A stretch of 64,000 nt of DNA from contig JASSKH010000016.1 in assembly GCA_031763025.1 (NCBI GenBank), positions 5,456,001-5,520,000 of the forward strand. Reading direction: 5' to 3'. The notes below the pieces were generated by a model. It was not told the DNA's origin, made no database searches, and saw only the letters and a program-made list of their open reading frames with translations. Position 1 is the first letter of the stretch. The number at the start of each line of letters is the position of its first letter. Positions 36,494 through 61,504 of the stretch are shown in pieces. Made by a program: the position numbers and the translations under genes. The stretch comes from Macrocystis pyrifera (Eukaryota; Sar; Phaeophyceae; Laminariales; Laminariaceae).

Positions 36494-36639
36494 ATGGTCT
36501 TCAATGCATTGCGAGTGGTGGGGCTTGCGTCGGCGCTGCTCCTGAGACCGACGGACGCGTGCAGCTGCTTCCCGCCAGGGCACCTGTGTGATTACATCCA
36601 GCCGGCGGATGTTGTCTTGCGAGCGACGGCTTTGTCAAG
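36494..36639 (+). CDS. Exon 1: signal peptide and CxC start of NTR domain
   Basis: ATG at 36494 opens 48 codons plus two bases, ending at the donor TCAAG|GTGAGG. The first 22 residues have a hydrophobic core (VVGLASALLL) and end TDA, a good signal-peptidase site. The next residues are CSCFPPGHLCDYIQPADVVL. This matches the start of TIMP/NTR domains in spacing (Cys-X-Cys, a third Cys seven residues later, then ADVV and a basic residue). No other start in frame gives a signal peptide. Confidence 0.7.
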
Positions 36640-39600
36640 GTGAGGTACAGCAGGATGTTGTACGAGAGACGATTTTGTTTTGTGTTATTTTTGGTACGCT
36701 TTGTGTCAAGCGTTATGTAATAGTACTACTTTGCAGCAGCAGAACACAGCAGCTGCAGCACAGCAGCAGCAGCAGCAGCAGAAGAGCAGACATCAGTGAG
36801 AGAGGCTTCTGGCTTGATGCACTTCTGCGATGTACGTAACATAATTTGTGTGGCTTGAGATTGCTCAACTGCACTGTGAGGGTTCTGCAGGTGGCAGCAG
36901 TCTCTCCGTTTGCCTTTGTAAGACCCCACAGAGCAGCAGCAGCAAAACAGCGGAAAGCAGTCAGAGAGGCTGTGCTCGTGCGCTGCTGCCATGTACGTAG
37001 CGTAAGGTGTGGGTCTTGAGATTGCTCAACTAAATTGCGAGGGCTTCAGCAGGTGGCAGCAGTCTCTCCGTTTGCATTCATGAGAGCCCACACAGAGCAG
37101 CAGCAGCAAAATGTGCTGCGCAATGCGACGATGAATTCCCAAAATCAAAACCGATGCAGCTGACTCTACAACAGTACACGTTTACTTTTCAGGCTACCCT
37201 ATACTTCATATGTGAACGAAAATATAATGCACGTTTTGTATGAAAATTTAAATCAAAACGATCATTATATTACCGTTCATAGTTGGTAACGCCTTTTCGT
37301 TCGATCTGAAGTTGCACCTAGGGCCATCGTGGGTGCTAAACCGAAAACGCAAGTCATTTTCCTCACTCTGTGATCGAACCAGGCATTTGTCACATACTTT
37401 TTCATCGTACGCGTACACGTGCGTGAAAAAATACCAAACTTTACTCGTATGCATGATACGAAGTATACGCATAGATCCCGTGTTCCTTACGAGCTGCTGG
37501 CGCTGCTGCTGCTGCTCGTGCTGCTGCTGTTGCTGCTGCTGACGCTGCTGCTGCTATACTCGGAGTTAGCTGCTGTAGCTTTCCAGGTGTATGCATGGAT
37601 GTCGTGTATGTACAGCAGTACCAGGTATTTATTAATAATAGTATTGGTGTAGCTGGAAGTGCAGGATAAAAGACAGCAACCGTTGTTATTAATAGTATCA
37701 ATATAGTGTGGCATATGATCATGACGATGAATGGGTGTGAACCTACAGCAGTACAGTTAGTAAATACTTGGCACACGTGTTCCAGTGTGTTCCTCGTGTT
37801 GATAGGGGTCTCGCTTGTTGTTTGTTCTGCGCAGATGAATGGGTGCAACTGCTGCTCCTGTGTGGTAGTAGCATCAACATGACAACCAAACATGACCCTC
37901 CCGAGTCCCAACACAAACCCGAGAACCTTACACGGCGATGCTAGAGTGGTACCTATTATATATGTACTGCTGTACTCGCAACAAGTCAGCGATAATAAGT
38001 AAATACCAGGTACCTCTGAAGTTGTCTTCCGAAAAATTGACCCAGAATTCGTGCTCCAGGGCGGGCGCCAATCTATAATATTAACGTGGTGGCCTATTAT
38101 TGCTCAGGGGACATAGCACAGGTTTCGTCCATCTTCGTTCAGACTGGACTACCTGGTATAGACGAGTGCTCAACAGCAGCAGTACTGGTCGTAGTGTGGT
38201 GCAGTCTATGTTCCGAATGTACGTACATAAGAGTATTAAGTTCATTGTTCAGGTGATCCTTGTTGGCGGGCCCTTTACTGTTACGGCACATACAAAAGTA
38301 TGATACCCCAGGTAAAACACCGAAGAGAGCACACCCCGGTGATAACATTTTGACCTTGGAAAATACTATCACCGGGTGTGCTCTTGTGGTGTGTGGTACC
38401 TAACGCATCCCTGGCGATAAGCAACATGCGCGGGAGGGAGCCCCGCACCTAGGGTTGGGGTGGCAACGAGGGGGGGGTGGTAGCGAGGGTGTGTGCTAAC
38501 GGTACTGCTGATAGCTAAGGAGCGTTGATAGACCTCGGCCAGACTACAGAGGGCGTGTTGGCAAGGGGATCGACAACAAAGGGGGTGATACCGGCAACAA
38601 CGGGTGTGATAGCGTATGAGAGGCTTTGGTCTGAAACCAGCCTGCTTTTCCATTCCCACGAAATACTGCCGGTAATGGTGAGGTCAACGCCTGATACCGG
38701 AGATGACAGCAAATATAGACAGTAGATCCCCGCCTTGCCAGTTGCTGCAATGCGACAGATCGGTTATCGGTAAGGCATGACCTAGCTCTTGCGCTGGTGC
38801 AACTTCCGGGTTGGAATGTAATGCTGTTTAGCACGACATGGAGGTTTCGCGCCGCTCAACTGCTTTCGCCGCAGGCGAAACCACTACCAGGTATTTAATA
38901 AAATATATTTTGAGGCACCTTTTTCGTTTCGGCTGCTGTGGTCGAAAAAAATGTTTTAAGGTGTCTAAAAACACTTCTTCGAGTGGTTTTCGGGCGTACA
39001 TGAACGAAACTGTCGCATATTTTTTGCCCCCGGCGACCATGGGGTGGGGGTATACGCCTGCGGCGCGTAAGCGCAAGGCGATTTTCAGCTCACGTCAACT
39101 GCGCATCACGGAAGGTGCCGGAGCCCTGAGTGCCGTGTACCCTGGTTACAGACACTACGGTAGGAGTTCATTGATGTCTAAACCCCCGAAAGAGGCACCT
39201 CAGAGGCCCTCGCCCCTTGTCCCTTGCGCCCGCGAAAAGCTGACTCCTGCCGTAATCAGATGAAACCGTTGTTTCTATCATGTACCCAACACCCCGAACA
39301 GCAGTCGTACGCCGTGGCATTGCGCATTGCGCACTGGTTTATTTCCGAGATTAATCTCCAATGACACGCGACGAGTTCCGTGACTTGGCCACAAACCTAC
39401 CACCGGCGCCGGTGGTCGGGGATTAGGGAACGGCAGGAGGAGGTGTGTAGCAGTACTAGTGCTGCGGGTGATTGTGTCCACCAGGGTGGAGGGTGGAGGG
39501 ATAGTTTTGTATTTGGATGCTGTTTTCAGACGCGACTCCTTTGGGGGGTGTGGTATTCAACGTACCCCCGGTGCTAAAGTGACGATTGAAGAACGGACCA

Positions 39601-42600
39601 CCAAGACGCAAATATCACCGGGTTTGCTATTGTGGGGGGGGTTGCTATCTCGGGGGGGGGGGATTCTTTCGTGTTACACGATACACGCTCGAGTAGTATT
39701 ATACGAGTAGTGATGGTAGCAGCACCACCGGTGGTGTACGTGTACGTGTGACTGTAGTATACAGTAGTTGTTATCACGGGGGACCATAGTAAATAGGACC
39801 TACGGTCCACACAAAATCCTATATATTTAACCATTTTTACCTAGAGTATTTGGTCCTATTTACTATGGACCTCCGTAATAGTAGTGTGGCAGTGTCGTGT
39901 ATTGCGAAGCATACCCGGGGAACTGCTGAGACTGCACGCACCCGCGAAGCACGAACCACTGCATAGTAACGTACGACGACATCTGAGTACCAATGTATCT
40001 ACAGCAGTAGTCGCAGATGTGCGGGCATCTTTACCGATATACCTGGTAGCAGTTTTAACATTAGTTTAGTTTTTGTGGAAGGTGGTGAGCCCAACATCGC
40101 ATCGTCTGTGTGATGCCCACTCGTAAACATTTATAAAAAAAAAAGTACAGGTGTGATACTATATATCATATACCTGGTACCCGTATATCATGTTGAGACA
40201 CGTGAAACACGTTTTCGACGACAGCTGACCACAGCGGGAACACAAGAGATGGAGGTGCCTCAATTATCTTTCCCGCCTGCAACGGGTAGAATATGGCCCA
40301 ACAGGTTTTTCGCCTGCGGCGAAAAAGGTAAAGCCTTCTGACGCCCGTTGCGCTAATCGGCATTTAATTTCAACCCGGAAGTTACGCCAGCGCAAGATCT
40401 ATTTCATGCCCTACCGGTTGCCGTTGTGTCGCATTGCAGCGAGGCGGGGATCTTTGCTGTCATCTCCGGTATCAGGCGTGAGTATTTTACCATCACCGGC
40501 AAATACTATACTTGGTAGGAATGGAAAAAGAAGCTGGTTTCAGACCGAAGCCTCTCACATGCTAATACACCCCTTGTTATCTACCACACCCCTTGTTGCC
40601 GGTATCACCTCCTTTGTTGTCGACCCCCTTGCTTGCACACACTCTTGATATGACGCCCTCTGCAGCCTGGCCGAGGTCTATGATTAATAGCGCTCCTTAG
40701 CAATCATTACTGTGCATCGTTAGCACACCCCCTCGTTGTGTCCCCCCCCCCCCCCCCCCCGTTATCACACACCCTGGCTGCGGGGCTCCCGTGCATGTTG
40801 CTTATCACCAAGGATACCCCCACAACGGCACTCCCGGCGATCATATTTCTGGGGGTCAAAAAGTTATCACCGGGGTGTGCTCTCTGTGTTATACGGAAAC
40901 GGTACCAGCTCGACGGTACGTACGTACAGCAGTATTATAGTATTAATGGTACCGGCAGTCTTTCACCCACCACCTGAACGGTGCTTTGCATAAACGTCTT
41001 GGAATATTCTTTCACATATGTACCAGTTATAACGCCATACATTCGTTGTTATTTCATTGTTACGAGGTATGAATACGCACCTTCGTTCGGTAGTACGACC
41101 TGTGCCGGAAATTGAAATTCGGAATTTGGTATTCGAATACGTATTGAGCATTGATCGTAAGAGAACTATCCTTGCCGGAGGTCGGTTCCCTTCCTACTGG
41201 GCGAAGGCACGGGCGTGTACCCAGAGGTTGAAGTGGGATCAATGTACGGACACAGACCAAACCCAACGCGGTGACCCTATGTGATTTTCATTTCTTCCTT
41301 TCTCCGATTGATAAGCCTTATTGAAGGAGTCGTGTGGCGTGGGTGGATGACGAGCCTGCTCTGCTTGTTTCGTACTGTCTGACGCCGAGGGGCCGGGCAT
41401 AGTTGACGAACGCTGGACGATGGTGGCAGACAGGGTAGCAAGGTACCAGGCGGGCCAGCAGGGATACCCTGGCTGTGCTACTCGTACCATAAACTGCTGC
41501 CGCTACCTGGAGCATGCCTTGTGCTTTGTTTGGTTTGACTGTTATTTTACCTTGGTTCTTAGTCTTACTCTGTTGACGACTAGTGGTGTTTTCTTCTTTT
41601 TCTTTTTCTTTTTCCAGCTCGTTCTTTTCAAGTGTCTGCCACGTCCCCTACGTGGGGGTACGATGGTTTGTTGCTATACTGAAGTATATACATATACCAG
41701 GTATATTTTAGTTTCTTTCTTTTTTTTTTTTTTTTTGCTTCTTTTCTCTTTCGAATTGTCTTTGTTTTTGTTTTTGTTTTTTCTCTTTGTTTCGTTTTTG
41801 TTTTTCTAAGTCATGGAATGTGTATGTCGTGCCTGTCGTACGCAGTATGATGACATGGCATTGCATTACATACGTGGCAACGTAGTATCTCTGTGGCGTA
41901 GCTTTGTGACCACAGAACTTGTATCTCTCTAGGTTTGAAGAATCGGCACGGACACTGGTTGTGCTGGATGTCGACGCGTAGAAAGAACGTTTAATGTGAA
42001 GAAAACAACAACAACAACAACATATGTGATTTTCATTTCTTCCTTTCTCCGATTGATAAGCCTTATTGAAGGAGTCGTGTGGCGTGGGTGGATGACGAGC
42101 CTGCTCTGCTTGTTTCGTACTGTCTGACGCCGAGGGGCCGGGCATAGTTGACGAACGCTGGACGATGGTGGCAGACAGGGTAGCAAGGTACCAGGCGGGC
42201 CAGCAGGGATACCCTGGCTGTGCTACTCGTACCATAAACTGCTGCCGCTACCTGGAGCATGCCTTGTGCTTTGTTTGGTTTGACTGTTATTTACCTTGGT
42301 TCTTAGTCTTACTCTGTTGACGACTAGTGGTGTTTTCTTCTTTTTCTTTTTCTTTTTCCAGCTCGTTCTTTTCAAGTGTCTGCCACGTCCCCTACGTGGG
42401 GGTACGATGGTTTGTTGCTATACTGAAGTATATACATATACCAGGTATATTTTAGTTTCTTTTTTTTTTTTTTGCTTCTTTTCTCTTTCGAATTGTCTTT
42501 GTTTTTGTGTTTTTTTGTTTTTTCTCTTTGTTTCGTTTTTGTTTTTCTAAGTCATGGAATGTGTATGTCGTGCCTGTCGTACGCAGTATGATGACATGGC

Positions 42601-45600
42601 ATTGCATTACATACGTGGCAACGTAGTATCTCTGTGGCGTAGCTTTGTGACCACAGAACTTGTATCTCTCTAGGTGTGAAGAATCGGCACGGACACTGGT
42701 TGTGCTGGATGTCGACGCGTAGAAAGAACGTTTAATGTGAAGAAAACAACAACAACAACAACCTCAATACTCGTACGACACTGACCCCAAACCGAACCCA
42801 AACCGGCCCCCAGTGGGCCAGAAGCCGCATCCCTTTTTTTTGTTGTTTTATTCCGAACCTGCGGACCACGATTTTCCCCCCTTACTCTATCAATATTAGT
42901 GACTGTAATTTTCCGGAATTTTCTCGGAATTATCTTACCGAATGAAGTGTGGATACTATTAATAGTGTGTGGGCACCTGGTGATGAGTGACTATTTTTAC
43001 GGAAGTGGGTGTTGCGCTTGGCGCCTAAAGCCGTACCTTTCGACACTCGTCGAACCTTAATAATCCTAGCCCGATTCCTCAGCCAGTGTGATTCAAGCAG
43101 TGGTGGGATGCTGTACTTGGCGGGACTATCAGCAGATGTCCACCGCTACTACTTTCTGTAGACCCAAACCCAATCCTAACTGACCCCAACCCTACCTCAC
43201 AGCCAACACCGGCCAGAAACGCGGCGGCGCCGCATTCGAAATTTTCGGAATATTCCGAACCGCGAGGTTCTGTTTACCTCCTCCCTGGCCGACAACTTGT
43301 AGGGAGTCGTAGAACAGCAGTGAAAGGTAAAAGGCCCCCGACCAGTAGAAAATGGCCTTAGACAGGGCTGTACATTCTTTTTTTCCTCTAGCACGCTTTT
43401 TTTTTTATTTTTTTCAAGTGTCTGCCACATTCCTTGCGGGGAGGCACGACATATTTAGTTTTTCTTTTTTCTTTTTTCCTCTTTCCCTTTCGATTTGTTT
43501 TCTTTTTTTCTTTGTTCTTGTTTTTCGTTGTTTTCTTTCGTTTTCTCTCTTTCATAGAATATATATATATATATATTTGTTATATCAAGTATGAAATGGC
43601 ATTGCATTGTCTACTGCTGTGCTTACTGCATACGTAACATTGTATTACGGGGGACCATATTAAATAGGACCTACGGTACACACAAAAACCTATATATTTC
43701 GCTATTTTTACTAACAATATTTGGTCCTATTTACTATGGTCCCCCGTAATAGTATCTCTTATGTGGCGTAGTTTTGTGACCACAGAATTTTTTATCTCCC
43801 TAGGATTGAGAAATAAGACAGCACGGACACTGGTTGTGCTGGATGTCGACGGGTAGAAAAGAACGGTTTAATATGAAGAACACACACACCCTACACCAGG
43901 GTTATAGACGAGTACGTCTGTCTGTCTCTCCAACCTATTGGACCGTGCTGTATGGCCTTGTCAAGTAGGACGCGTGGGGATTAAGGTTTTTTAGCACTTT
44001 CTCGGCGAAATTTATCTGCGTGGTAGGGGGGGCGTTCAGAAGGTAAAACCCGAAACTAAGAAAAAGGAAACTCCGAATTTCTGAACCCTTTTGAGTATTG
44101 TTAGGACTGCAGTCCCGTTTTGGGGGCAAACCAGTCTAATTCTAAGTAATTTGTCCCTAACACGGCACTGCAGCCCTAAAAGGATTATCTGAAGTGATGG
44201 CGCTCACGTACGTACTGCATGGACACACTGGGTGCGCTGCTATGATACTGCCTTGAATGAGGTTTAAAGCCCGGTCTTTAAAATGCCCATGCCCAAGAAC
44301 CCCACGCAGGTCCGCGCCCTGATGGGCGGCGTGGGATATTATCGCAAATTCCTGCCCGGTCTGTCTAAACGGAGACGTCCTCTCACCGCCCTTCTCCGGA
44401 AGGGGATCAAGTACTTGTTTACGCCGGCTATGGAAGTTATCGTCCCCGATCCTCGGCTGCCACGCCTCCCTCTCACGATTTTTCAGCGTGCTGGAGTCGC
44501 TGGCCACCAGAGCTTGGCCGGCGACCACCTTGCCTACTGCGATTTGGCGACGGACCGCCAGCAGCGCGCGTACGATATCGTTCGCGAACACCACGCCCTC
44601 ACTGTTACTCGCGTGAACCGCCGCAACTCTACCCTCTCCGACGCTCTGCGTCCGGTCCCCAAATTTGACGTGGGCGGTTGGGTGTGGGTGTACAATACGG
44701 CGGCCACCATTCGCCAGGGCGCGAAACCCGATACGGACGCCAAGGTCCTCAAGGCCAACCTCTCACTCAAATGGACGGGCCCCCACAAAGTCCTCGCAGT
44801 TGGCCCCTGCTCCTCAGTGGACACCCCGGACGGATCTTCTCTCGGAGCAAAGGTCCTGTATTTGGATCTTCCTTCCGATATGCCCGGCGCTGAGGCTCTC
44901 CGGCGCGTATCAGTTCAACGCTGCAAGCCCTGTGCCAACCCCCACGACCGTGGCGACATACCGAAGTATTTGCGGGCGGGGTTGACGCAATACGTGCTCA
45001 ACAATTTCTCCAAGCAATTCCCCCCGTATCACGTCACCGAGGACGACGTTTCGACCCCTCTTGAACGACTCGAAGTGGAAAAGATTACTGGACATCAATC
45101 GGTTAGAGGTCGAGGTGGCGTCATCGCGGTGATGTACGAGACGAACTGGACAGGACTATCCCGTCCATCCTGGGAACGGGAAATGGACCTTCAGCTTTCT
45201 CGCCACGAGATTTAGCGCTACTGGGCCGGCACCCCGAACCAACACCGCCAAACCAACCGCCTGCACCGCCGAATGAGAATCGGCGCGGCACAACGGGAGC
45301 TTTTTCGGCGTAACGGCGAGCGGTTTCTGGCACCCGGCTAAAGCTGCGTATCGCTCGCCGATTGGCTTCGCCGATACAGCAACACTGTGCTTCCCAACGG
45401 GCCCCACTTTTGGTACAAGGGCGACGACGGTCTGTGGTGGCTGGGAAAAATCAGCGCGACTACGCCCACGGATGGAGTATATTTGGTTCGATTTTTGGAC
45501 CACCCGGGACCGATCAAGCTTCCCCTTTCTCCGGCGCGCTACACGACTTCGACGAGAGCTGTACGAGGTTCTTGGTGCAAATTCACTTGGCTAGCGCGTT

Positions 45601-48600: not shown

Positions 48601-51566
48601 CCCGTTCCTTCGTGTGTCTGTTGTTGGAATCTACGTGGGCTACCATACCACTACGAACAGTCGGCTGACCATTATTCGCCGACTATAATAGTTATCGGTT
48701 GGTTAGTTGGCTATGGTGGGTGTTCGTAGCCCGTTTATTACGGGGGGCCATAGTAAACAGGACCAAATTTTGTTAGTAAAAATAGGGAAACATATAGGTT
48801 TTTGTGCGTACCGTAGGTGCTGTTTACTATGGTCCTTCGTAACAATAGTTTGTCCCCCAAAACGGGACTGCGGTCTTAAAAGAGGTATTTTAGTTGCGTG
48901 CGGCAATTTGCAGAGTTCCGGCGTTTTTGTATCTCGCTGGCGCGTTTGTGGCTCGGGTTGTGTGGTTTGTGGTTTGCTATTTTTTTAGTGAATACTAGAA
49001 AGAAAATGCAGTTTTTTAATAAATAGTTGGTATAAATATCCACACCAACAACTACTGCTGTAAAATTCTGTCAACATTAACATTCCTGAAGCCCATCCGG
49101 CCAACTCTTTGTTCGATAAATTTTATTTTTTTCACTCGTACTGCTGTATATGTTCCATTCAATTTATATCTTCGCCCTGCTACGTACTGGCACTTACCAA
49201 AGCCCCCTCCCTCCCCTTCGTGACTGCTGTAATTCAGACACTCCTCCCCCCCAGAAAGGGTGCATTCGCTTGAAGAGGGCACCGTGGTCTTCCATCGTCG
49301 ACTCGCGTTGAACCGTGCATTGCATGCAAACGTAATATTACGGGGGACCATAGTACATAGGACCTACGGTGCACACAAAAACCTATATATTTATCTATAT
49401 TTACTAACAATATTTGGTCCCCCGTAATAGCTGCTGTCTGTCAGTGAAATTTTGCACAAGAAAAACTCCCTAGGGGCGGATTCGAACTCACGCGATCAAC
49501 CTTACTTATTCGTCACGAGGTTAGACCTGTGCCAATGGAAACGCGAAGTCCAAAAGTTTTCTTTCAGAAATATTGCTTTAAAAAAAACAGCCGAAAGTAT
49601 CCTCGTACCGTTGTGTGGGGAAAAAGGGAAAAAAAATGTTGGATTTTTTTTTTTTTTTTTTTCCTAACGGCTGCAGGCGGCGCAAGTTGTTGTTTCTCTC
49701 GTTGCAAATTGTCAACACGCTGATAAAAATCAGGTCATGCGACGATAGATTAGATGCTCGATCTCGATATAGACTCAGCCCACGGCCAACCCGCTTGGTG
49801 CCGGGCAAGGCCAACGAGTATAGATGACGGCATCGAACATAGACAGTGAATTGTCGCCGAAACGGGAGGGGCAGCTGTATGAGTAGTCCGAAAGGGCTCA
49901 TATTTCGGGGGACCTAGAGTAAACAGGACCAAATATTGTTAGTAAAAATAGGTAATCATATGGGTTTTTTGTGTGTGTGTGTGCCGTTGGTCCTGTTTAC
50001 TATGTTCCCCCGTACTAGTAGGCTACTCGAGGCGGGCACGGGTGGTTGGTTCTGCACTCCGCACCTCTGTAAAAAAAATGGCCTCTTTGAGACCTGTTTC
50101 GTTGGCGCAGGAGGCGTATCAGACCAGTCGAATGACGGCTGGTTCGATCGTACATATCGCGAAGTAAAAAAAGCACGAATGCTTCAAAAACCCCTTTTTT
50201 TCAGGGTTGCAGTCCCGCCATGGGGACAAACTATTAGTAATATTGCGCGGGGAGACCATAGTAAATAGGACCTACGGTACACGCCAAAACCTATATGTTT
50301 CCCTATTTTTTTACTAACAATATTTGGTCCTATTTACTATGGCCCCCCGCAATATTATACGGGGGACCATAGCAAATAGGACCTACGGTACACACAAAAA
50401 CCTATATATTACCTATTTTTTACTAACAATATTTGGTCCTATTAACTATGGTCCCCCGTAGTATTATACGGGGGAGCATAGTAAATAGCACCTACGGTAC
50501 ACACAAAAACCTATATATTTATCTATTTTTTACTAACAATATTTGGTCCTATTAACTATGGTCCCCCGTCATTTGAGTGGTTTTGGCCCCCAAAACGGGA
50601 CGGATTTTGGTTGTATTATCCTAGGCGTGAAGGCGTGCAGGCTGGAATCGTCATTCTCAATCTTAATGTTTTCTATTTTCTTTTCCCCCTCTGAAGTCCA
50701 AACAGGCTATATACCAAGTACCATTCTGTCCTAACATATAAGGGTCGTTTGTATAGTATAATTGAATCAAAGAGTCCCTTCTAATTAGAGACAAAGTGGT
50801 AACGTATTTTCAATAGGGCTACTATTAATATAAATATTTATATTACGGCTGTGAGTTGGCTGGACTTGCACGGCAAAATACTTTTACTACTATTGCTGTA
50901 ACTATTTTTTTTTTTTTTAGTGTTTCACTTGGCAGAACGGAAACACATTAGATAATCTGAGACACAGCCAGTCACAAAGTTTAACGTACCAGCAAGATAC
51001 AAAGACGCCAGCACTCAACTTACTAATAATAAGTGCTGTAATAGCAATCTGGACGGAAATATAAGGAACGGTTCGTATTCAGATTAAAGTCCAAACGATC
51101 CTTATGTTAACGCCAAGTTGGACGGAAATGAAGAAGACCGCTTCGTCTTCGTATTTATACCCCAAACGGTCGTTATATTTCCGCCCATCAGAGTTGTCAT
51201 ATCTAGTCGGCGGCTTACTCTAGTCACACAGCCAAGCCAAGCCAAGCCAGGCCAAGCCAACTCACGGACCTACAAAAGGGCCGCAACTTGATAATACAAA
51301 TATACAGATTTCGAGCTTTCGTGATACACCGCCTTCTTAACGCTTTTTAGGGCTGCAGTCCCGCTTCGGGCACAAATGACTCCATTCCCAACTATTACGG
51401 GGGACCATGGTAAGTACGGTATTGCGTAGGCTGTTAATGCATTGCGGTGTGTTGTCTCTGTGTCGTAGTCTGTGACCACGGAGCTCGCATCTTTCTAGGG
51501 TGAAGAATCAGCACGGACACTGGGCTTGCTGGATGTCGACGAGTAGAAGAACGGTTTAATGTGAAG

Positions 51567-51641
<75 letters not shown>

Positions 51642-54600: not shown

Positions 54601-57600
54601 ATTACGGGGGACCATAGCAAATAGGACTCCAGACATTGTGAGTAAAAACAGGTAAATATATAGTTTTTGTGTGTACCACAGTAAATAGGACCTATGGTAC
54701 ACACAAAAACCTATAATTCACTCTAGGTACACACAAAAACCTATATATTTCCCTATTTTTACTAACAAAATTTGGTCCCATTTACTGTGGTCCCCCGTAA
54801 TAAATAGTACCAGGTAGCTGTCTGTTGCGTGTGGCGAAGTTCACCACTCTCTTCGGAAATATGAAGACCGACCAATTCTTTTATATTTTTTCAGCCAGCG
54901 TGACACCACCAGGCACGTCACTGTTTTTTTTGGGGGGTTTCTGTGTTTCCTGTAACAGTTGAAGGCACAAGCCTGCAAGATAGATACGCGAAGACGCCGG
55001 TCTCCGCGAATTTGCCGCACGCGCCTACAGCAGAGTAACTGCCAACACCTTGCCTGTGAAGTCAACTGCTGAGAGCGCGTAGTAGCGTGGGTAGGCGCAT
55101 TTTTTTTTTAATGTAATATGTATATCGTGTCGACGAGGGAAGACAGGGCTTTAAATAAAGTCTTCTCGCGGATAAAAAATGCCAAAGAGGGAACGAACCG
55201 TTTACGTTGTGGGGAGGGGGGCGGAGAAAGAGCCAGCCTGCTTAAATAGTGACCCCGGATCTGAGTCACGACTCTATGGGAGGGAGAAAGAAAAGCAGGG
55301 CGAAGATAGTAAATGCGAAAAGAAAAGAAAAGAAAAGAAAAGAAAAAGAGACAGTCGGCGACGTATGGTCGGCCAGCTCACAGCCCACCCCCCCGTAGGT
55401 ATTACGGGGGACCATAGTAAATAGGACCTACGGTACACGCAAAAACCTATACTTTTCCCTGTTTTTACTAACAGCATTTGGTCCTATTTACTATGGTCCC
55501 CCGTTGGTAGTAAATGTGGGAACATTGGGGCCTGCCTGTCTTGTGACTCACGGGCTACTAATAGATGACGGCGATGAGTTATAAATAGTGTGGGAAAAAC
55601 AGTTACGTTCGTGGGTATGGACAGAATTGTTGGAACCCGTATCTTTTTGCGACTCACGACGGACAAGAGATGACGGCAAGGAGTTGATTTTGAGAACAAC
55701 AGCCACCGACTATTACACCGTGACTGAGACGCGTGCTTCCATGTAAGGGTACTCTTACTCGTATTACGGGGGACCATAGTAAATAGGACCAAATATGTTT
55801 AGTAAAAGTAGGTGAATGTATAGGTTTTTATGTATACCATAGGTTCTATTAACTATGGACCCCCCGTAGTAGCACGTTTTTTCTTCTTCTTCTTCTTCTT
55901 CTTCTTCCGAGACTCTTCACTTTCTTTTTTTGTTCTTTGCTTTTTTTGTTTTTTCCCATCCGAATCATTTTCTTGGCCCTTTTTCTTTCTCGTGCTCCCT
56001 CCCTACTGTAGTCGTAGCTCATATCCGGGATCACATATTAGCAGTAGAAAATCGACTCGTTGACGCTATCATCCGTATGCTAGAAAATCCGCCTCAAAAG
56101 TGGTTCTTGTGGGATGCAGCTCACTCTTCATGCGACCCGCTCAACACCTCACGGCGCTTCGCGCTTGGCGCAAGCTATGCCTGCCTGGTCGGTGAAAAGC
56201 CGACGTGCTCCGTCCCGGCATTGTAGGGATGCGAGGGTCTATGTTTATACGACTACGGCCATGCGTGACAATGAGTACCCCCCCCCCCCCCCCCCCCCCC
56301 TCTCTCCAATGCATTCAACGATGCCATCCATATTCAAGTCCGCCTCACAAGCGGTTTTTAGTAAGATGCAGCTCACCCTTCACTGGACTCGCCGAACACC
56401 TCCCGGCGCGTCACGCTTGGTGCAAGCAACGTTTGCCCTTGCGGTTAGTGAAAACCCGACGACGTGCTCCGTCCCGGCAGTGTAGGTATTCGAGGGTCTA
56501 TGGCAACACGACTACGGCCATGCAGTTACACCCCCCGCCCTCTTCACCCACCCATCCGCTCGGGCCGTGCCGGGCCGGGCCGGAAGGGGCTCATGGATAA
56601 ACGCTCATGATATCAGGACACAAATATTACATGCATATATGTTATCGTGTAGGCATCGAGTATATTTATAGAATGTAGAGTGCACAGGAAGGAAGTCATC
56701 AGCCCGTTATACGACATCTCCCCACAGGAGGAACATGCCCTATTGTCTCTACGCGCTCCCAAATCGTTACGAAAATTAATGACCATCTCGTACAGCTCGT
56801 GCACTCAACACACCCATCCACCAGCCCAACCACCCACCAACCCACCCACCCTCACTCACCCGTCGACCCGCCAATGAATGCACTACGCGCGCACAGAGAC
56901 GCAAACGAAACCGACATCAACGCAGATGCCGTGTACGTTATCCGAGCGGTGGAGGTGTACAAGAGCATCTCCGATCAGGACTACTACGCGGAGGACATGG
57001 CGATCAACATCACCACCTCTGGGAACAGCGCCATCTGCGGCATCTACATGGAAATCGGAGAGGACTACCTCATCGACCTCGACCTCGTTGACAGCGGCTC
57101 TGGGTCGGCGGGAGGTACCCACTTGAAGGCGGTGGGCATTTGCGGGGTGTTTCGCAGCTGGAGCGCTGTGGAGGATTCGGAGGAGGATTTGGCGATTCTT
57201 GAGGAGGGGTGCGACGACTACGACGCCTGCGAAGGAGAGTGCGGGGAGTTTCAGGTGCGGTGCGGGACAATACAATGCGGGCGGATATTGTGGCGCGGGC
57301 GGGCGGGCGGGCGGGCGGGCGCAGGGGGGGGGTGTACTCATTATCATTCATGGCCGTAGTCGTATGATCATAGACCCTCGCATCCCTACAATGCCGGGAC
57401 GGAGCACGTCGGGTTTTCACCGACCAGACAAGACATTGCTTGCACGAAAAACGCGAAACGCGGTGGGGTGTTGGGCGACATGAAGGATGAGCTGCATCCT
57501 GCTAAAAACCGCTTGTGGGGCGGGTTTTCTTGCATATTGATGACAGCAGCAATGGATTGATTCAACCTCTGGTGTGGCCACTTCCAGAGACAGCAATGGG

Positions 57601-60600
57601 TTTACTGTGTAACTGCCTCGTGGGTGCCTCACCATGTACATACTACGTGATACGATCATTCCCCTTGTGCGGAGTAAAGGTTCTCTCCGCACAAAATGAG
57701 CTAACTTGACCGCCAGCCGTGGTAATCGCTAAAAACAACAACAACAACAACAACAAACGACATCCTGGCTGTCTAGCTCACGCTGTGAGAAGTGTTTGTC
57801 AGCGTCGTCGCCAACCGACGCCAGCCCAACCCAACCTATATGGGCGGGGGCAGGGGTGTACTCGATATCATGCATGGCCGTAGTCGCATGGCCATAGACT
57901 TTCTCATCCCTGGAGTGCGAGGACGGAACACGTCGGGTTTTCACCGACCAGGCAGACATTGCTTGTGCGGGACAATACAAAGCGGGGGAATATTGCAGTA
58001 CGGGCGGGCGAGGGGGGGGGGCGGGGGAGGTGCCCGTCTGTTGCTTGCCTTTGTCATTTTGACAATTGACTACGCATCCCTTTCGAGACGGAGCACCCTT
58101 CTTACTCCAAAGAGAGATCGCCTCCAACACTTGGGGGCGCTCATTTTACGTTTCCACCGTTTTGGTATTATTTTCCCCTTCCTGGGATACATTGGGGAGT
58201 AATTCGGTGCGCGGGGTGACGTGGTGCAGGGAAATGGGCTGGGGGGGAGAGGGGGGGGGAGGGTGACAGGGGGGTGGTTAGAGCTTCATGGTGTTGTACC
58301 TATCTGACCCAAAGTAGAAGGGATTCTGAAATGATTGGCCAAATCATGACCCGTTACATTTCTACCGGTTTTGTGCTTTTGGTGGCGCCTGCGTCTACCC
58401 TTTTACCCTACCCTACCCTACCCTACCCTACCCTAGCCTTCCCTTCCCTACCCCTGCCTTACCCTCCCCTACCTCACTTCACTCTACCTTACCCTACCTT
58501 ACTCCCTCCCCCCAACCCACTCCCTCGTTTCGAAAATGAGACAGAATTGCCTGATGGAGATTACCGGGGATGGATACTATTGCGCGGACTCTTGCGACCT
58601 CGGCCCCTGCGAGGACGACGAGGAATGCACGTACTCCCCCGATTCCTCTTGCAAGAGCGGCAATCCGTGCCCCTCCTTAGCAAAGTGCACGACACAGGTA
58701 AGACGGGGGGAAGGGGGTGGGGGGGAGGCGTGGTTCGTGGTTATTGGTCGAGTTAAGGCTTGGGTTGGGATTATTGCTTGTGGGTCGGGGTTGGGTGTGG
58801 TTTGGCGCGAAATCGTGGACACACACACACGAATCATGGGCACACACACAAAAAAGAAACATCGACGCACTCCTTACTCCTCTTGGGACTGCAGTCCCGC
58901 TTTGGGGACAAACCACTAAAAAATTATGTAGATTGTTCCCACGACAGGACTGCGGTACTGAAAGGGTTAGTCGATTAATCGTGAGACACACACATGCCGT
59001 CAAATTTTGGACATTCACACAAAACAACTGATACACGCGCATCGAAAAAATCATGGACACACACCACTTGTTGTGCACGGTAACCTTCGGGAGCCGATGT
59101 TAGGTTTTGGGTTGGGTTTGGGGTCGGGTTTGGTTTGACCCTCGCTTTTTGTTCGGGTGCGAGGAGGGTGCATCAATTTTCCGAAGGCCCCTTCCTCACT
59201 CGAGAGAACCCTACATGAAATATCTCGGCTCAAAAAGTGAATTTGATGAATAAAAAAGTGACAGGCAAATCCGGTGAGCCGTATGTATATATAGGGTGTG
59301 CTGTCGAAGAGTTTCGTTGGAACCAATTCGGTTGGGTTTCTTGTGCTCTGTTTTCTGTGCACAAGTTACCCTAAACCATGGTACCCTCTTCCTGGAAGTT
59401 AACACAGCCCAATGATAATTACGTTGAAAGCGGCGTTTTTGGCCACTTTTTGACACAACCTCAGAAATATCCTAAAATTCCGTGGGTTGCGGTCATTTTT
59501 ATTTACCTATGTACCAGGAAACTCCCAAGAACTAAATTGGTTTCAAACCAAATCCTTCGCGAAACACCCTCATCCTTCACGAAACTCCCTAATGCCGTAC
59601 CTTATTGGTATGTAACTAACAATATGGTTTCAGAGATATACTATTACGGGGGGGGGGCATACAGTAGTAAATAGGACCAAATATTGTTAGTAAAAAAAGG
59701 TAAATATATAGGTTTTTGTGTGTACCGTAGGTCCTATTTACTATGGCCCTCCGTAATACATATTCGGGCAGTTTTGTTAGTCAAGGAGCTCAAGCTTCCG
59801 TCCTTCAGAAAGAAGATGGCCAGAACTGCCTTACTCCTATCATAGCACTACGAGTCCTTCGGGTTTGCTGTGGTTTTTGGATCTTGGGTTAAGTTCAGTG
59901 TTGGGTTTGGGTTTTGGTTGGGGCTGGGTTCGGAGTTGGGTGTGTGCTTGAGGGGTGGGTTTGGCTCGAGTTTCACAAGTATTTTGCGGGGTTTCAAAAG
60001 ATACTTTTGAGATTGTGCGTGGATTCACGAAGAAAGTTTGAGATTTTGTGGGACTTTTTCAAAAGATATTTTGAAGCGGCAAGTTTCTTACACGGGGATA
60101 TATGGACTATACCTGGTATGGTTGAAGGGGCAAGGTTCGAAAGTGTACAGTCACCCTTCTCCGTTCCTTATCCATTCTTCTAATACTGCGTCCCCCTCCT
60201 GCCGTCCCTTCTGCTGTACCAACTCCGCTCCACCGCGCAGGAGGTCTCGATTACGCCAGCACCGGTCCCAGGAACGGTCCTTTTACCGACCCCTCCCCCG
60301 AGAGCGGAGATCGACTCTGCCACCGGTGCTCCAGTCAGGTTGATCGATATTGCTTTGACCCCCCCCCCCCGGGGGCGTCGATAGAGTCGAGCTCGTCGTT
60401 TGACACCGGTGCTCCAAACCTTGGATGGGATATTGCACTGACCCCGCCGCCTGGAGCCTTGGTGGACTCGAGCTCCTCTGGCACGGGCCCTCCGAGCGTT
60501 TCGCTGTCGGCAGATGAGAGCTCGTTGTCTGGCACCCGTGCTCCACCCCACGGGCGTGATGTTGCGACGACCCTCCCTCCAGGAGCGTCAATGGAATCAA

Positions 60601-61504
60601 GCTCGTCTGGCACGAGCGCTCCTAGTGCTGGGAGGGTTATTGCTACCACTCTTCCTCCGGGAGCGTCGATAGATTCGAGCTCGCCGTCTGCTACCGGTGC
60701 TCCAAACCTTGGGCATGATGTTGCTATGACCCCGCCCCCTGGAGCGTCGATGGAGTCGAGCTCGTCGTCTGCTAGGGATGGGAGTGGGGCGTCGACCGAT
60801 GCTGAGGTGCCAACATCGAGTGGTTCGGTGAGTCGCAAGTACAGGTCGATGCCCTGAGATGGCAGAACCTGCCAAGCCCATAGCCCCGCGGCCTCAAAGC
60901 ACACGGACAAAACGCCACGCTTGAATCTGATGTACGAGTGCATAAGGCCATGCATGCTACAGAAATAGGAGGGTACCGGGTTTTGTTTTACCTTTCCTCA
61001 AACGAGGAGTGGCGACTCACAGTACCTCTTCCCCCTCCCCTGCGACTACGGCCATGGATGGTATCTCCCTCCCCTGCCCTCCTGACCTCCTCACCCCCCC
61101 TCCCCCCCCCCCCCCCCCCCCCTCTCCCCCCCGCCCCTGCGCGCTCCCGTCCTCTCCCTTCTCAGACTTTTACCCTCTCCCAGACCCCCACAGCGACCCC
61201 CTCAGCGGGAAATGGAGAGCGAGGGGGCATCGAGATTGTTTCCGCCGCACCTTCTGTTGCTGCCGCCACCAGCACTGCGTCACCCCCAACACTAACTGGC
61301 GACAACGGAAACACCAGTTCACCTACCGCCACGCCGAGCGGAGGTGGGGGTGCTTCCGCCGAGAGCGACGCTTCCAGCGCCTCGGGAAGGTTTAGGGCGG
61401 GTCCCGGTGGCGGCGGGGGTGGTCGCGGCGGCGGTGGTTGGGGTGCTGTCGTGGCGGTAGCTGTGGGGGCCCTAGGGGTGGCTGGTCTTCGTCAACCTTT
61501 CTGA
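36494..61504 (+). CDS. Secreted TIMP/netrin-like (NTR) domain protein with Ser/Pro repeat stalk and GPI-like tail (5 exons)
   Basis: Proposed exons are 36494-36639, 56897-57254, 58545-58697, 60241-60827 and 61166-61504. Phases match at every junction (2/1, then 0/0). The product is about 526 residues once a homopolymer frameshift in exon 4 is allowed for. Predicted order: signal peptide (1-22), NTR domain (23 to about 165) starting Cys-Ser-Cys, Cys-rich module (about 154-219), Ser/Thr/Pro tandem repeats (220-414), and a Gly-rich then hydrophobic C-terminus. TIMPs inhibit metalloproteinases through the free amino group of an N-terminal Cys-X-Cys, and here predicted signal cleavage leaves exactly that. 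The protein is probably at the cell surface or in the cell wall. The 20.3-kb first intron is the weakest link: exon 1 could belong to a different gene. Confidence 0.68.
38838..39263 (+). other. Unrecognised 141-codon open frame inside the foldback element
   Basis: The frame is open but its composition does not look clearly coding, and part overlaps the inverted arm. I recognise no domain. It is listed only because it is the longest frame in the element interior. Confidence 0.15.
39772..39879. mobile_element. TTACGGGGG palindromic MITE nested in the foldback element
   Basis: Full-length copy with a T-to-C change in the left terminus (TTATCACGGG). It lies between the inverted arms at 38299 and 40895. 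Confidence 0.88.
41279..42766. repeat. Recent 744-bp tandem duplication
   Basis: 41279-42022 and 42023-42766 are near-identical. Both run from TGTGATTTTCATTTCTTCC through GACGCCGAGGGGCCGGGCAT to AACAACAACAACAAC. The differences seen are a few T-run length changes and single substitutions, so the duplication is young. A diverged third copy follows at about 43375-43870. Confidence 0.92.
43375..43870. repeat. Diverged third copy of the 744-bp unit, with MITE insertion
   Basis: Shared blocks are TTCAAGTGTCTGCCAC, ATGGCATTGCATT, GTGGCGTAG, GTGACCACAGAA and ACTGGTTGTGCTGGATGTCG. The order is the same as in the tandem copies at 41279-42766. A MITE at 43644-43750 interrupts it. Confidence 0.75.
43644..43750. 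mobile_element. TTACGGGGG MITE with demonstrable TA target duplication
   Basis: It lies in the third 744-bp repeat copy. The empty paralogues read ACGTAGTATCTC, while this copy reads TGTA-TTACGG...CCGTAA-TAGTATCTC. Confidence 0.95.
44100..44185. repeat. Palindromic GGGACTGCAG repeat beside the Ty3 remnant
   Basis: AGGACTGCAGTCCCGTTTTG and its inverse, ending CACTGCAGCCCTAAAAGG. Confidence 0.75.
44238..44278 (+). mobile_element. Truncated 5' LTR fragment
   Basis: About 41 bp (TGCTATGATACTGCCTTGAA onward) match the start of the 286-bp LTR at 46204 with few differences. Sequence identity stops just before the RT remnant, so a deletion removed the rest of the LTR, gag and most of pol. Confidence 0.6.
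44283..45658 (+). pseudogene. Internally deleted Ty3/gypsy polyprotein (RT end fused to integrase C-terminus, chromodomain)
   Basis: The frame opens with PKNPTQVRALMGGVGYYRKF and PLTALLRKG, the region at the end of a Ty3/gypsy reverse transcriptase. It then jumps directly to an integrase C-terminal region with LKWTGPHKVLAVGP, the GPY/F module. A chromodomain-like stretch follows (VEKITGHQ, NWTGLSRPSWEREMDL) and is interrupted by TAG at 45213. It resumes as RYWAGTPNQHRQTN, and a later frame has WYKGDDGLWWLGKIS and YLVRFLDHPGPIKL. RNase H and the integrase zinc finger and catalytic core are missing. The copy cannot be autonomous. It is flanked by LTR-like pieces. Confidence 0.8.
46204..46489 (+). 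mobile_element. 3' LTR of the deleted Ty3/gypsy element
   Basis: The segment begins TGTTATGATACTG and ends GATCTTAACA, so TGTTA/TAACA form 5-bp inverted termini. Its first 40 bp recur at 44238-44278, just before the polyprotein remnant. The flanks do not show a clear target duplication. Confidence 0.6.
47056..47145 (+). repeat. C-tailed dispersed repeat, partial
   Basis: Only the last third is present (CATTGTAGGGATGCGAGGGT to GGCCATGCATGATAG). The C-run here precedes the segment. Confidence 0.7.
47564..47949. mobile_element. 386-bp nonautonomous hAT-type element with 8-bp target duplication
   Basis: The ends are CAGTGATGACAATTCCGGCG and the inverse of a near-identical 20-mer (CGCCAGAATTGCCATCACTG). 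GTATATAG flanks both sides at 47556-47563 and 47950-47957. Eight-bp duplications and CAGTG ends are hAT hallmarks. A related sequence at about 31240-31410 lacks the insert and shows the empty site. No transposase is encoded. Confidence 0.85.
48737..48843. mobile_element. TTACGGGGG MITE, inverted orientation
   Basis: Both arms are present. The right end is mutated (TCCTTCGTAAC). Confidence 0.88.
49337..49429. mobile_element. TTACGGGGG MITE, right arm shortened
   Basis: The TATTTACTATGGT part of the right arm is deleted, so TTTGGTCC joins CCCGTAATAG directly. Confidence 0.85.
49446..49540 (-). mobile_element. tRNA-derived SINE-like element, second copy
   Basis: On the minus strand it reads TGGCACAGGTCTAACC (A box), then GAGTTCGAATCC (B box), then TTTTTCTTGTGCAAAATTTC. 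Layout and 3' body match the copy at 35085. The clover-leaf does not close well, so a live tRNA is unlikely. Confidence 0.6.
49902..50016. mobile_element. TTACGGGGG MITE, diverged
   Basis: Inverted-orientation copy with terminal substitutions and a short GT expansion in the middle. Confidence 0.8.
50242..50570. mobile_element. Tandem trio of TTACGGGGG MITEs
   Basis: Three head-to-tail copies (about 50242-50353, 50354-50463 and 50464-50570) share junctions of the form CCCGTA-TTATACGGGGG. A GGGACTGCAG-type repeat lies on both sides. Confidence 0.92.
51394..51420. mobile_element. Single MITE arm fragment
   Basis: Only the left arm (TTACGGGGGACCATGGTAAG) is present. It is cut by the start of the dispersed repeat that follows. 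Confidence 0.7.
51425..51567. repeat. Dispersed partial copy of the 744-bp unit 3' end
   Basis: It shares TAGTCTGTGACCACGGAGC, CAGCACGGACACTG and CTGGATGTCGACGAGTAGAA with the units at 41279-43870 and leads straight into a long CA repeat. Confidence 0.65.
51568..51640. repeat. (CA)n microsatellite, about 36 units
   Basis: An uninterrupted CA run of about 72 bp directly follows the AACGGTTTAATGTGAAGAA end of the dispersed repeat. Shorter CA runs follow the same sequence at about 43880. Confidence 0.95.
51640..51856. mobile_element. MITE inserted into another MITE (nested pair)
   Basis: An inner full-length copy (51658-51766) splits an outer inverted-orientation copy. TAGGACCAAATATCGTTA lies on the left and TAGTAAAAATAGCG on the right, with a decayed right arm ending CCCCCGCAATAG. 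The outer left arm is missing and abuts the CA repeat. Confidence 0.85.
52170..52235 (-). repeat. Inverted fragment of the same repeat end
   Basis: A GT run followed by GTTCTTCACAC and CTACTCGTCGACATCCAGC is the reverse complement of the 3' end of the 744-bp repeat family. Confidence 0.6.
52490..53090. repeat. Foldback repeat of about 600 bp
   Basis: AACACCGGTAGACTCCTCAG and CTTTCTCGAGCACTTTTCCG on the left are inverted on the right (CTGAGGAG-like TTTTGAGGAGTCTATCGGTG, and GGGAAAGTGTTCCTGAAAGC). The outer AGACCAACTATT/AATAGTTGGTCT also pair. No coding frame is recognisable. Confidence 0.78.
53815..53921. mobile_element. TTACGGGGG palindromic MITE
   Basis: Both arms are present, with a TAACGGGAG left end and a CCCCCATAA right end. 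Confidence 0.85.
54601..54801. mobile_element. Chimeric double MITE
   Basis: An inverted-orientation left half is joined to a duplicated central segment. ACACACAAAAACCTATA occurs twice before a normal right half. This looks like recombination between two adjacent copies. Confidence 0.82.
55318..55347. repeat. (AAAAG)n run
   Basis: Five AAAAG-type units. Confidence 0.9.
55401..55505. mobile_element. TTACGGGGG palindromic MITE
   Basis: Full-length copy. The right terminus has changed to CCCCCGTTGGTAG. Confidence 0.88.
55763..55869. mobile_element. TTACGGGGG palindromic MITE, inverted orientation
   Basis: Full-length copy directly upstream of a (TTC)n run. Confidence 0.88.
56075..56535 (+). 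repeat. C-tailed dispersed repeat, two tandem copies
   Basis: Two copies (about 56075-56302 and 56330-56535), each with the ATGCAGCTCAC, GGTGAAAA-CCGACG and ACGACTACGGCCATGC blocks. The first ends GTAC plus a C-run of about 22. Confidence 0.8.
56897..57254 (+). CDS. Exon 2: body of the TIMP/NTR-like domain
   Basis: The acceptor GCACAG|A supplies one base that completes the split Arg codon of exon 1. The exon encodes the beta-barrel strands (YVIRAVEVYK), then the SAICG motif, EDYLIDLDLV, and GICGVFRSWS. These correspond to the TIMP landmarks S-A-V-C-G, YL-I and the C..F..W segment. Predicted cysteines at about 96, 131 and 154 pair plausibly with 23, 25 and 32, as in TIMP disulfides. A further Cys cluster (EGCDDYDACEGECGEFQ) begins the next module. 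The exon ends CAG|GTGCGG in phase 0. Confidence 0.8.
57300..57535 (-). repeat. C-tailed dispersed repeat, reverse copy
   Basis: Just after the exon 2 donor of the NTR gene, a GGGC/G-run leads into GTACTCATTATC, ATGGCCGTAGTCGTATG, GGGTTTTCACCGACC and GATGAGCTGCATCC. Confidence 0.8.
57845..58030 (-). repeat. C-tailed repeat fragment plus duplicated intron start
   Basis: GTACTCGATATCATGCATGG to CAGGCAGACATTGCTTG is the reverse repeat. It runs into GTGCGGGACAATACAAAGCG, a second copy of the intron 2 start at 57255-57300. Confidence 0.7.
58545..58697 (+). CDS. Exon 3: cysteine-rich module
   Basis: The exon runs from GAGACAG|AAT to ACACAG|GTAAGA, 51 codons in phase 0. It contains nine cysteines (for example CADSCDLGPCEDDEEC), which together with the cluster at the end of exon 2 form a compact disulfide-rich module. 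I do not recognise the fold. A CCCTA pyrimidine array of about 100 bp leads up to the acceptor. Confidence 0.72.
58880..58970. repeat. Palindromic GGGACTGCAG repeat in NTR-gene intron 3
   Basis: GGGACTGCAGTCCCGCTTTG and inverse CACGACAGGACTGCGGTACT. Confidence 0.75.
59643..59758. mobile_element. TTACGGGGG palindromic MITE, inverted orientation
   Basis: Full-length copy in intron 3 of the NTR gene. The G-run is expanded and CATACAG is inserted in the left arm. Confidence 0.88.
60241..60827 (+). CDS. Exon 4: Ser/Thr/Pro tandem-repeat stalk, with homopolymer frameshift
   Basis: The exon runs from CCGCGCAG|GAG to GGTTCG|GTGAGT. It encodes about five degenerate repeats of roughly 30-42 residues built on TGAPNLG-D-A-TPPPGAS-ESSSS. 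In the first repeat a 12-C run at 60359-60370 breaks the frame and leads to a TAG. Ten C (or 13) would keep the repeat motif TPPPGAS intact and make the exon 585 nt, in phase with both neighbours. The repeat is likely an O-glycosylated stalk, which is inference from composition. Confidence 0.68.
61166..61504 (+). CDS. Exon 5: Thr/Ser/Gly-rich region and hydrophobic C-terminus
   Basis: The acceptor CCTTCTCAG|ACT follows a long C-run in phase 0, and the frame stays open for 112 codons to TGA at 61502. The sequence goes from Thr/Pro/Ser-rich to Gly-rich (GPGGGGGG) and ends with WGAVVAVAVGALGVAGL and a few more residues. A small-residue patch, a spacer and a terminal hydrophobic stretch are what a GPI-anchor attachment signal looks like; a single C-terminal membrane helix is the alternative. 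Confidence 0.7.
   Translation, partial: TFTLSQTPTATPSAGNGERGGIEIVSAAPSVAAATSTASPPTLTGDNGNTSSPTATPSGGGGASAESDASSASGRFRAGPGGGGGGRGGGGWGAVVAVAVGALGVAGLRQPF

Follow-up and report, generated by a model that had tools for sequence, protein, structure and literature searches.

A 64,000-nucleotide (nt) stretch of the genome of the giant kelp Macrocystis pyrifera (assembly GCA_031763025.1, contig JASSKH010000016.1; C196:5456001-5520000 in our searches, hereafter the window) carries a multi-exon gene whose homology to the TIMP/netrin-like (NTR) family is supported. A profile search, Pfam matches to its paralogues and a structure model of its orthologue all agree on this identity, which the original prediction had proposed from the sequence alone. 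We hold with moderate confidence that the gene encodes a brown-algal TIMP-family protein that is tethered and is a probable blocker of zinc proteases in the cell wall.

Relatives place the gene in the TIMP family

Because searches with single sequences were weak, we turned to profiles. A profile of six brown-algal sequences, the window protein included, was searched against the PDB, and all 15 matches at E <= 1 were TIMPs. The top match was TIMP-2 (E 8.6e-14), with an alignment that begins at the mature Cys1. The original prediction had suggested a hidden Markov model search against the NTR/TIMP families. This search found the Pfam family PF00965 over its cut-off in all four spliced kelp paralogues (4.2e-11 to 6.2e-13); a Pfam scan of the window protein alone returned no match, TIMP included, and its TIMP family membership therefore rests on its relatives. 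A structure prediction for comparison with TIMP N-domains, also suggested at the outset, matched an NTR fold: the model of P0005, the orthologue from Ectocarpus sp., resembles TIMPs and other NTR domains (NTR/OB fold), and the alignment behind it held no known animal row. A second model built from more rows had lower domain confidence, was no better and was excluded from the fold searches.

A conserved cysteine pattern and predicted mature N terminus

The cysteine pattern that had been read as TIMP-like, 23-96, 25-131 and 32-154, stands as far as positions go, as all six cysteines (23, 25, 32, 96, 131 and 154) are present in the window protein; the pairing itself is presumed from TIMPs. In six aligned sequences, window included, Cys 23, 25, 96, 131 and 154 are invariant, and the third, Cys32, occurs in five of the six. 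The predicted mature start, CSC directly after TDA, is likewise in the sequence and conserved among relatives, and cleavage would fall between Ala22 and Cys23.

First exons, assigned by position and strand, were recovered for 10 of the 16 family loci in the kelp genome. All ten encode Ala-Cys-X-Cys after a hydrophobic leader, a count that is not independent, since five of them (the window and paralogues G1-G4) are rows of the search profile and a CxC profile favours such matches. Two of these first exons matched less strongly (21.6 and 18.4 bits). Residue X is Ser in five, Arg in two, Ala in two and Leu in one. A candidate eleventh first exon (9.3 bits) belongs to a locus with an in-frame stop; Tyr precedes its first Cys, and it was treated as a decayed copy. 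Two matches, at 11.7 and 10.6 bits, were discounted as chance. For five loci, no first exon was found within the stretches examined.

Proposed mechanism and candidate targets

TIMPs act by setting their N-terminal Cys onto the zinc of the protease (PMC9409782). With a leader Ala directly before Cys-Ser-Cys, the partner cysteines and the modelled fold, the features needed for this zinc placement appear to be kept in the kelp protein, and we infer metalloproteinase inhibition from this analogy. After the predicted cleavage, the mature protein would start with Cys-Ser-Cys, as its sequence and conservation suggest. Its N-terminal domain would adopt the TIMP NTR/OB fold seen in the orthologue model, probably with three disulfides. 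If the protein works in the established TIMP manner, Cys1 would then bind the catalytic zinc of a metzincin through its free amino group and its carbonyl. Residue 2 of a TIMP occupies the S1' pocket of the protease. The Cys-rich module, the Ser/Thr/Pro-rich stalk and a tail of the glycosylphosphatidylinositol (GPI) type may fix the inhibitor within the cell wall, on the outer side of the plasma membrane, and sister genes that end after the Cys module would yield freely secreted products. Such a protein would most probably serve to inhibit zinc proteases within the cell wall, whether metzincins of the alga itself or of a pathogen.

Reprolysin_5 exceeds its cut-off in two exons of the kelp genome (E 3.2e-4 and 6.5e-4), which carry the metzincin zinc motifs HEFGHNMGCNHD and HEIGHNLGANHD and encode possible partners or targets of the family. 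Peptidase_M11 had no match in this genome, a result that is uninformative since the control genomes were likewise silent. Foreign proteases may be as likely targets as the alga's own. Oomycete infection is reported to upregulate a secreted TIMP-domain protein in the red alga Pyropia, and this protein has been proposed to block a metalloproteinase of the pathogen (PMC6928737). From cDNA of oomycete-infected Ectocarpus, a secreted inhibitor of the serine-protease type I13 has been reported (PMC3174193).

Several observations weigh against a tethered TIMP-type inhibitor. Besides the missing Pfam match of the window protein, its exon is not among the five PF00965 matches in its own genome; P0002, P0005 and P0017 have no Pfam TIMP match either. 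As a single sequence, the window protein finds TIMP-2 as its best PDB match at E 0.043 only. The general NTR model of Pfam matches three of the four paralogues weakly, one of them barely over the cut-off (22.0 vs 21.9 bits). In the P0005 model, the first 28 residues, which contain the CxC, have a predicted local distance difference test (pLDDT) score below 50, and the overall mean is 51.5. Paralogue G2 is without the third cysteine. Exon 4 of the window gene (587 nt) is not one open frame as assembled, since its frame differs before and after a run of 12 C at 60359-60370. No canonical matrix metalloproteinase (MMP; Peptidase_M10) exon was found in the kelp genome, whereas 6 of 14 control genomes matched. 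Finally, a TIMP-like lipoprotein of Listeria is a substrate, cut and released by the metzincin of that bacterium (PMC8235301), and the fold alone is therefore no proof of inhibition.

Some of these observations would also fit a surface protein that has the TIMP fold and inhibits no protease, its NTR domain either binding a wall or matrix ligand or being itself cut and shed by a metzincin, as happens in Listeria. There is precedent for such roles in the NTR domains of agrin, complement C3-C5 and PCPE and in the Listeria protein. In our structure comparison, the NTR domains of meteorin, PCOLCE, complement and agrin scored as high as TIMPs; the weak matches to the general NTR model point the same way, as does residue 2, which is Arg, Leu or Ala in half of the ten kelp first exons. 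Nevertheless, every PDB match of the sequence profile at E <= 1 was a TIMP. All ten first exons also retain, where cleavage is likely, Ala-Cys-X-Cys, a feature that serves inhibition, although the search profile favours it. We consider a role without inhibition doubtful, if worth serious attention, and continue to favour a tethered inhibitor.

Gene structure and exon joins

The peptides named in the original prediction were all located on the forward strand in the order claimed: the end of the signal peptide (TDA) and the mature start (TDACS..CSCFPP, 36551-36577), SAICG (57027-57041), YLIDL (57066-57080) and GICGVFRSW (57135-57161). Exons 1-3 (Table 1) join through GT-AG introns, in phase 2 and then phase 0, into 219 stop-free residues, confirming the proposed multi-exon gene for a putative secreted protein. 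We used splice conservation among paralogues as a stand-in for RNA support of the joins. The join of exons 1 and 2 lies at the identical place, inside an Arg codon in phase 2, in four paralogues of the same genome, and that of exons 2 and 3, after ..(E/K)FQ in phase 0, is common to the three (all but G3) in which the end of exon 2 was defined. A profile without the window row (two Ectocarpus proteins and three kelp paralogues) matched exon 2 with 102.6 bits, exon 1 with 39.2 bits and exon 3 with 31.7 bits. Elsewhere in the window, no place scored above 6.4 bits, and 20 dinucleotide shuffles gave at most 9.7 bits. As the exon scores are far above the shuffles and the three matches occupy successive parts of the profile (4-53, 54-159 and 158-208), the gene signal is not due to chance. 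Exon 2 is 48% identical to Ectocarpus P0002 across the matched stretch.

Table 1 Exons of the window gene and associated features, with positions in the window unless a locus is named
Feature	Position	Strand	Description
Exon 1	36494-36639	+	Signal peptide ending TDA, mature start CSCFPP, first strand ADVVLRATALS; donor CAAG/gtgagg, phase 2
Intron 1	36640-56896	+	20,257 nt; numerous ~110-nt repeats with palindromic ends, and an open frame resembling a retroelement
Exon 2	56897-57254	+	TIMP/NTR domain body (SAICG, YLIDL, GICGVFRSW), end ..CEGECGEFQ, phase 0
Exon 3	58545-58697	+	Cys-rich module, 8 cysteines
Exon 4	60241-60827	+	Ser/Thr/Pro-rich repeat stalk, units like TPPPGASIESSSS..TGAPNLG; frame change at C12, 60359-60370
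Exon 5	61166-61504	+	Stalk remainder, Gly-rich stretch, hydrophobic C-terminal GPI-signal-like tail; stop at 61504
~110-nt repeat, example copies	39775, 43646, 48751, 50247-50576, 55403, 55777, 59665	both orientations	
Reprolysin-like exons	L043 1540 (C213), L044 1546 (C202)		HExxHxxGxxHD motif full

The part that follows the N-domain is an 8-Cys module that was not recognised as a TIMP C-terminal domain; animal TIMPs with a single domain exist (PMC9409782). The module follows the pattern CxDxCxPxPC..GExCTLE..C...PCPPxAxC, and its eight cysteines are invariant in six brown-algal rows, window included. Neither exon 3 nor the homologous exons had a Pfam match, and no convincing relative was found in the PDB (best E 0.24). 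The Cys-rich module, Ser/Thr/Pro stalk and GPI-like tail of the original prediction were all located, the stalk exon being broken in frame at the C run. The acceptors of exons 4 and 5 were chosen by eye on consensus and phase, and that of exon 5 (after 61165; pyrimidine tract, phase 0) is one of 19 that keep the tail open. The repeats of exon 4 are also visible as DNA repeats (set D8). Signal peptide and GPI signal were assigned by eye, as was the hydrophobic C-terminal tail shared by the window gene and P0005. On these sequence features, the product of the window gene is probably tethered at the cell surface.

The frame break may be a homopolymer assembly error, a real mutation or a sign of other splicing. 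If it is real, this copy could be decaying in this strain, with an intron 1 stretched by transposons, a frameshifted stalk exon and no full-length tethered protein. Intron 1 is indeed filled with repeats and measures 20,257 nt, compared with 2.7-8.0 kb in four paralogues. However, no stop interrupts exons 1-3, their splice sites are intact and their cysteines complete, and P0001, closely related to exon 2 (80% identity across 56% of the query), has an open frame. In addition, the giant kelp assembly was made from PacBio reads (PMC10498591), and a length error in a homopolymer is plausible. We judge decay of this copy improbable. That exon 1 and exons 2-5 are two separate genes lying about 20 kb apart by chance is highly improbable despite the distance and the dense repeats between them, given the in-frame join at a codon shared with four paralogues, the presence of both parts within one database protein (P0005), and the single exon-1 match and single exon-2 match in the 64-kb window, with no second copy of either inside intron 1 by profile search or tblastn.

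A family in kelp and other brown algae

We searched the kelp genome (537,376,219 bases, 223 contigs) with exon 2 of the window gene and obtained at least 16 matches, 14 of them at E <= 1e-3. The profile recognises all 16 loci (seven on C204, five on C191, two on C143, one on C189 and the window), one of which, L029, carries an in-frame stop (TGA). TIMP-type loci are clustered at C204:5.02-5.16 Mb, C204:12.35-12.39 Mb and C191:9.07-9.34 Mb, and L029 is apparently decayed. This arrangement resembles family growth by local duplication.

Outside this genome, the named relatives are proteins of Ectocarpus, Laminaria digitata and Scytosiphon, followed by a fish TIMP at 2e-11. Weaker relatives are bacterial-looking CSC proteins (E 7.6e-6 to 2.2). 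These searches scored the 7,999 and 7,995 candidates that share most words with the query, and distant relatives may be missed. P0005 (388 residues, not flagged as partial) has a leader, CSC, NTR part, Cys module, Ser/Thr/Pro stalk and GPI-like tail in the same order as the window gene, and pairs with it in a tree with support of 95/94. This tree has 16 rows and long branches, and we use it for this pairing and not for the order of brown algae, animals and bacteria. The three paralogues that have exon 3 reach a stop a few codons past the Cys module and are without the stalk. A third form, seen in G3 and in Laminaria P0007, has a tail rich in Ser, Asn, Gly and Asp instead of the Cys module, as far as it is readable. 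The full architecture of P0005 and its pairing with the window gene suggest that the tethered form is an old branch of the family and the secreted form another.

Repeats and other features of the window

The ~110-nt repeat, with inverted ends (TAGTAAATAGGACCAAAT...), lies in both orientations in intron 1 and elsewhere in the window. Its end has 14 matches in the window with at most one mismatch, compared with none in 100 shuffles. It resembles a small inverted-repeat transposon, and its copies would have helped to fill intron 1. An open frame of 315 residues at 44268-45215 (+) has no Pfam match and contains a stretch whose motif resembles retroelement reverse transcriptase/RNase H. Ten open frames of the window, including this one and most of the part of the stalk exon that lies past the C run, had no Pfam match at E <= 0.01. 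The window also holds a tandem array at 6115-6762 (77-nt unit, 8.6 copies) and an interrupted TTAGGG-like tandem array at 21317-21495, internal to the contig. Neither the Rfam scan nor the tRNA scan of the window found a match.

Brown-algal TIMPs and known systems

In a TIMP review and a survey of the family, TIMPs are presented as animal proteins bound up with the matrix of animals (PMC9409782, PMC10755359), and the main text of the survey has no words beginning with 'bacteria', 'algae' or 'protist'. The original prediction of a TIMP-like protein outside animals is supported for kelp, and not as a first, since a TIMP-domain protein of the red alga Pyropia (PMC6928737) and TIMP-like proteins of bacteria (PMC8235301) have been published. 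Among the matches listed in open-access literature on algal and non-animal TIMPs, there was no paper on a brown-algal TIMP, and the portions of PMC8307928 and PMC9598510 consulted contained nothing concerning TIMPs. What is new is that the TIMP family is expanded in brown algae and there has a Cys module of its own, to which the window gene adds a stalk and GPI-like tail. With at least 16 loci in giant kelp and relatives in Ectocarpus, Laminaria and Scytosiphon, the family shifts the animal-only boundary of TIMPs. It lends itself to a direct test of whether a second multicellular lineage evolved, or retained, control of its extracellular matrix by protease inhibitors, and its members are candidate defence genes for kelp farming. 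We tentatively suggest, as an idea that may well prove wrong, that brown algae control cell-wall metzincins by native tethered and secreted TIMPs and would thus be a second complex multicellular lineage with a TIMP-regulated matrix, in which the variable residue after Cys1 sets the target of each copy. The tethered form, with NTR domain, Cys module, mucin-like stalk and GPI anchor, would then be an architecture not known from any animal.

One published counterpart is py03343.t1 of Pyropia yezoensis, also a secreted seaweed PF00965 protein and a proposed inhibitor of a pathogen metalloproteinase. It differs in coming from a red alga, and, comparing by description only, the portion of the report consulted describes no Cys module, stalk or GPI tail (PMC6928737). 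The Listeria protein resembles TIMPs in predicted structure and not in sequence, and is a protease substrate (PMC8235301). Bacterial P0025 has a leader followed by CSC, as in kelp, and is just over the PF00965 cut-off (23.7 vs 23.1 bits), but matches the kelp profile more weakly (E 9.3e-5); two loci related to it occur in the myxobacterium Enhygromyxa salina. RECK, a GPI-anchored animal MMP inhibitor, would be alike as a protease inhibitor tethered at the cell surface, but its domains are unrelated to TIMP and do not have the TIMP fold. Animal TIMPs (PF00965; structures of TIMP-2, TIMP-3 and TIMP-1) share with the kelp protein, as predicted from its sequence, a signal peptide followed directly by Cys-X-Cys, a profile match from mature residue 1, a six-Cys N-domain with equal motif order and, by model, the NTR/OB fold. 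They differ in having the third Cys at mature position 13 rather than 10, and their inhibition is established whereas that of the kelp protein is predicted. In kelp, the N-domain is followed by the unrecognised 8-Cys module, the Ser/Thr/Pro stalk and the GPI-like tail, an order that we know from no animal TIMP.
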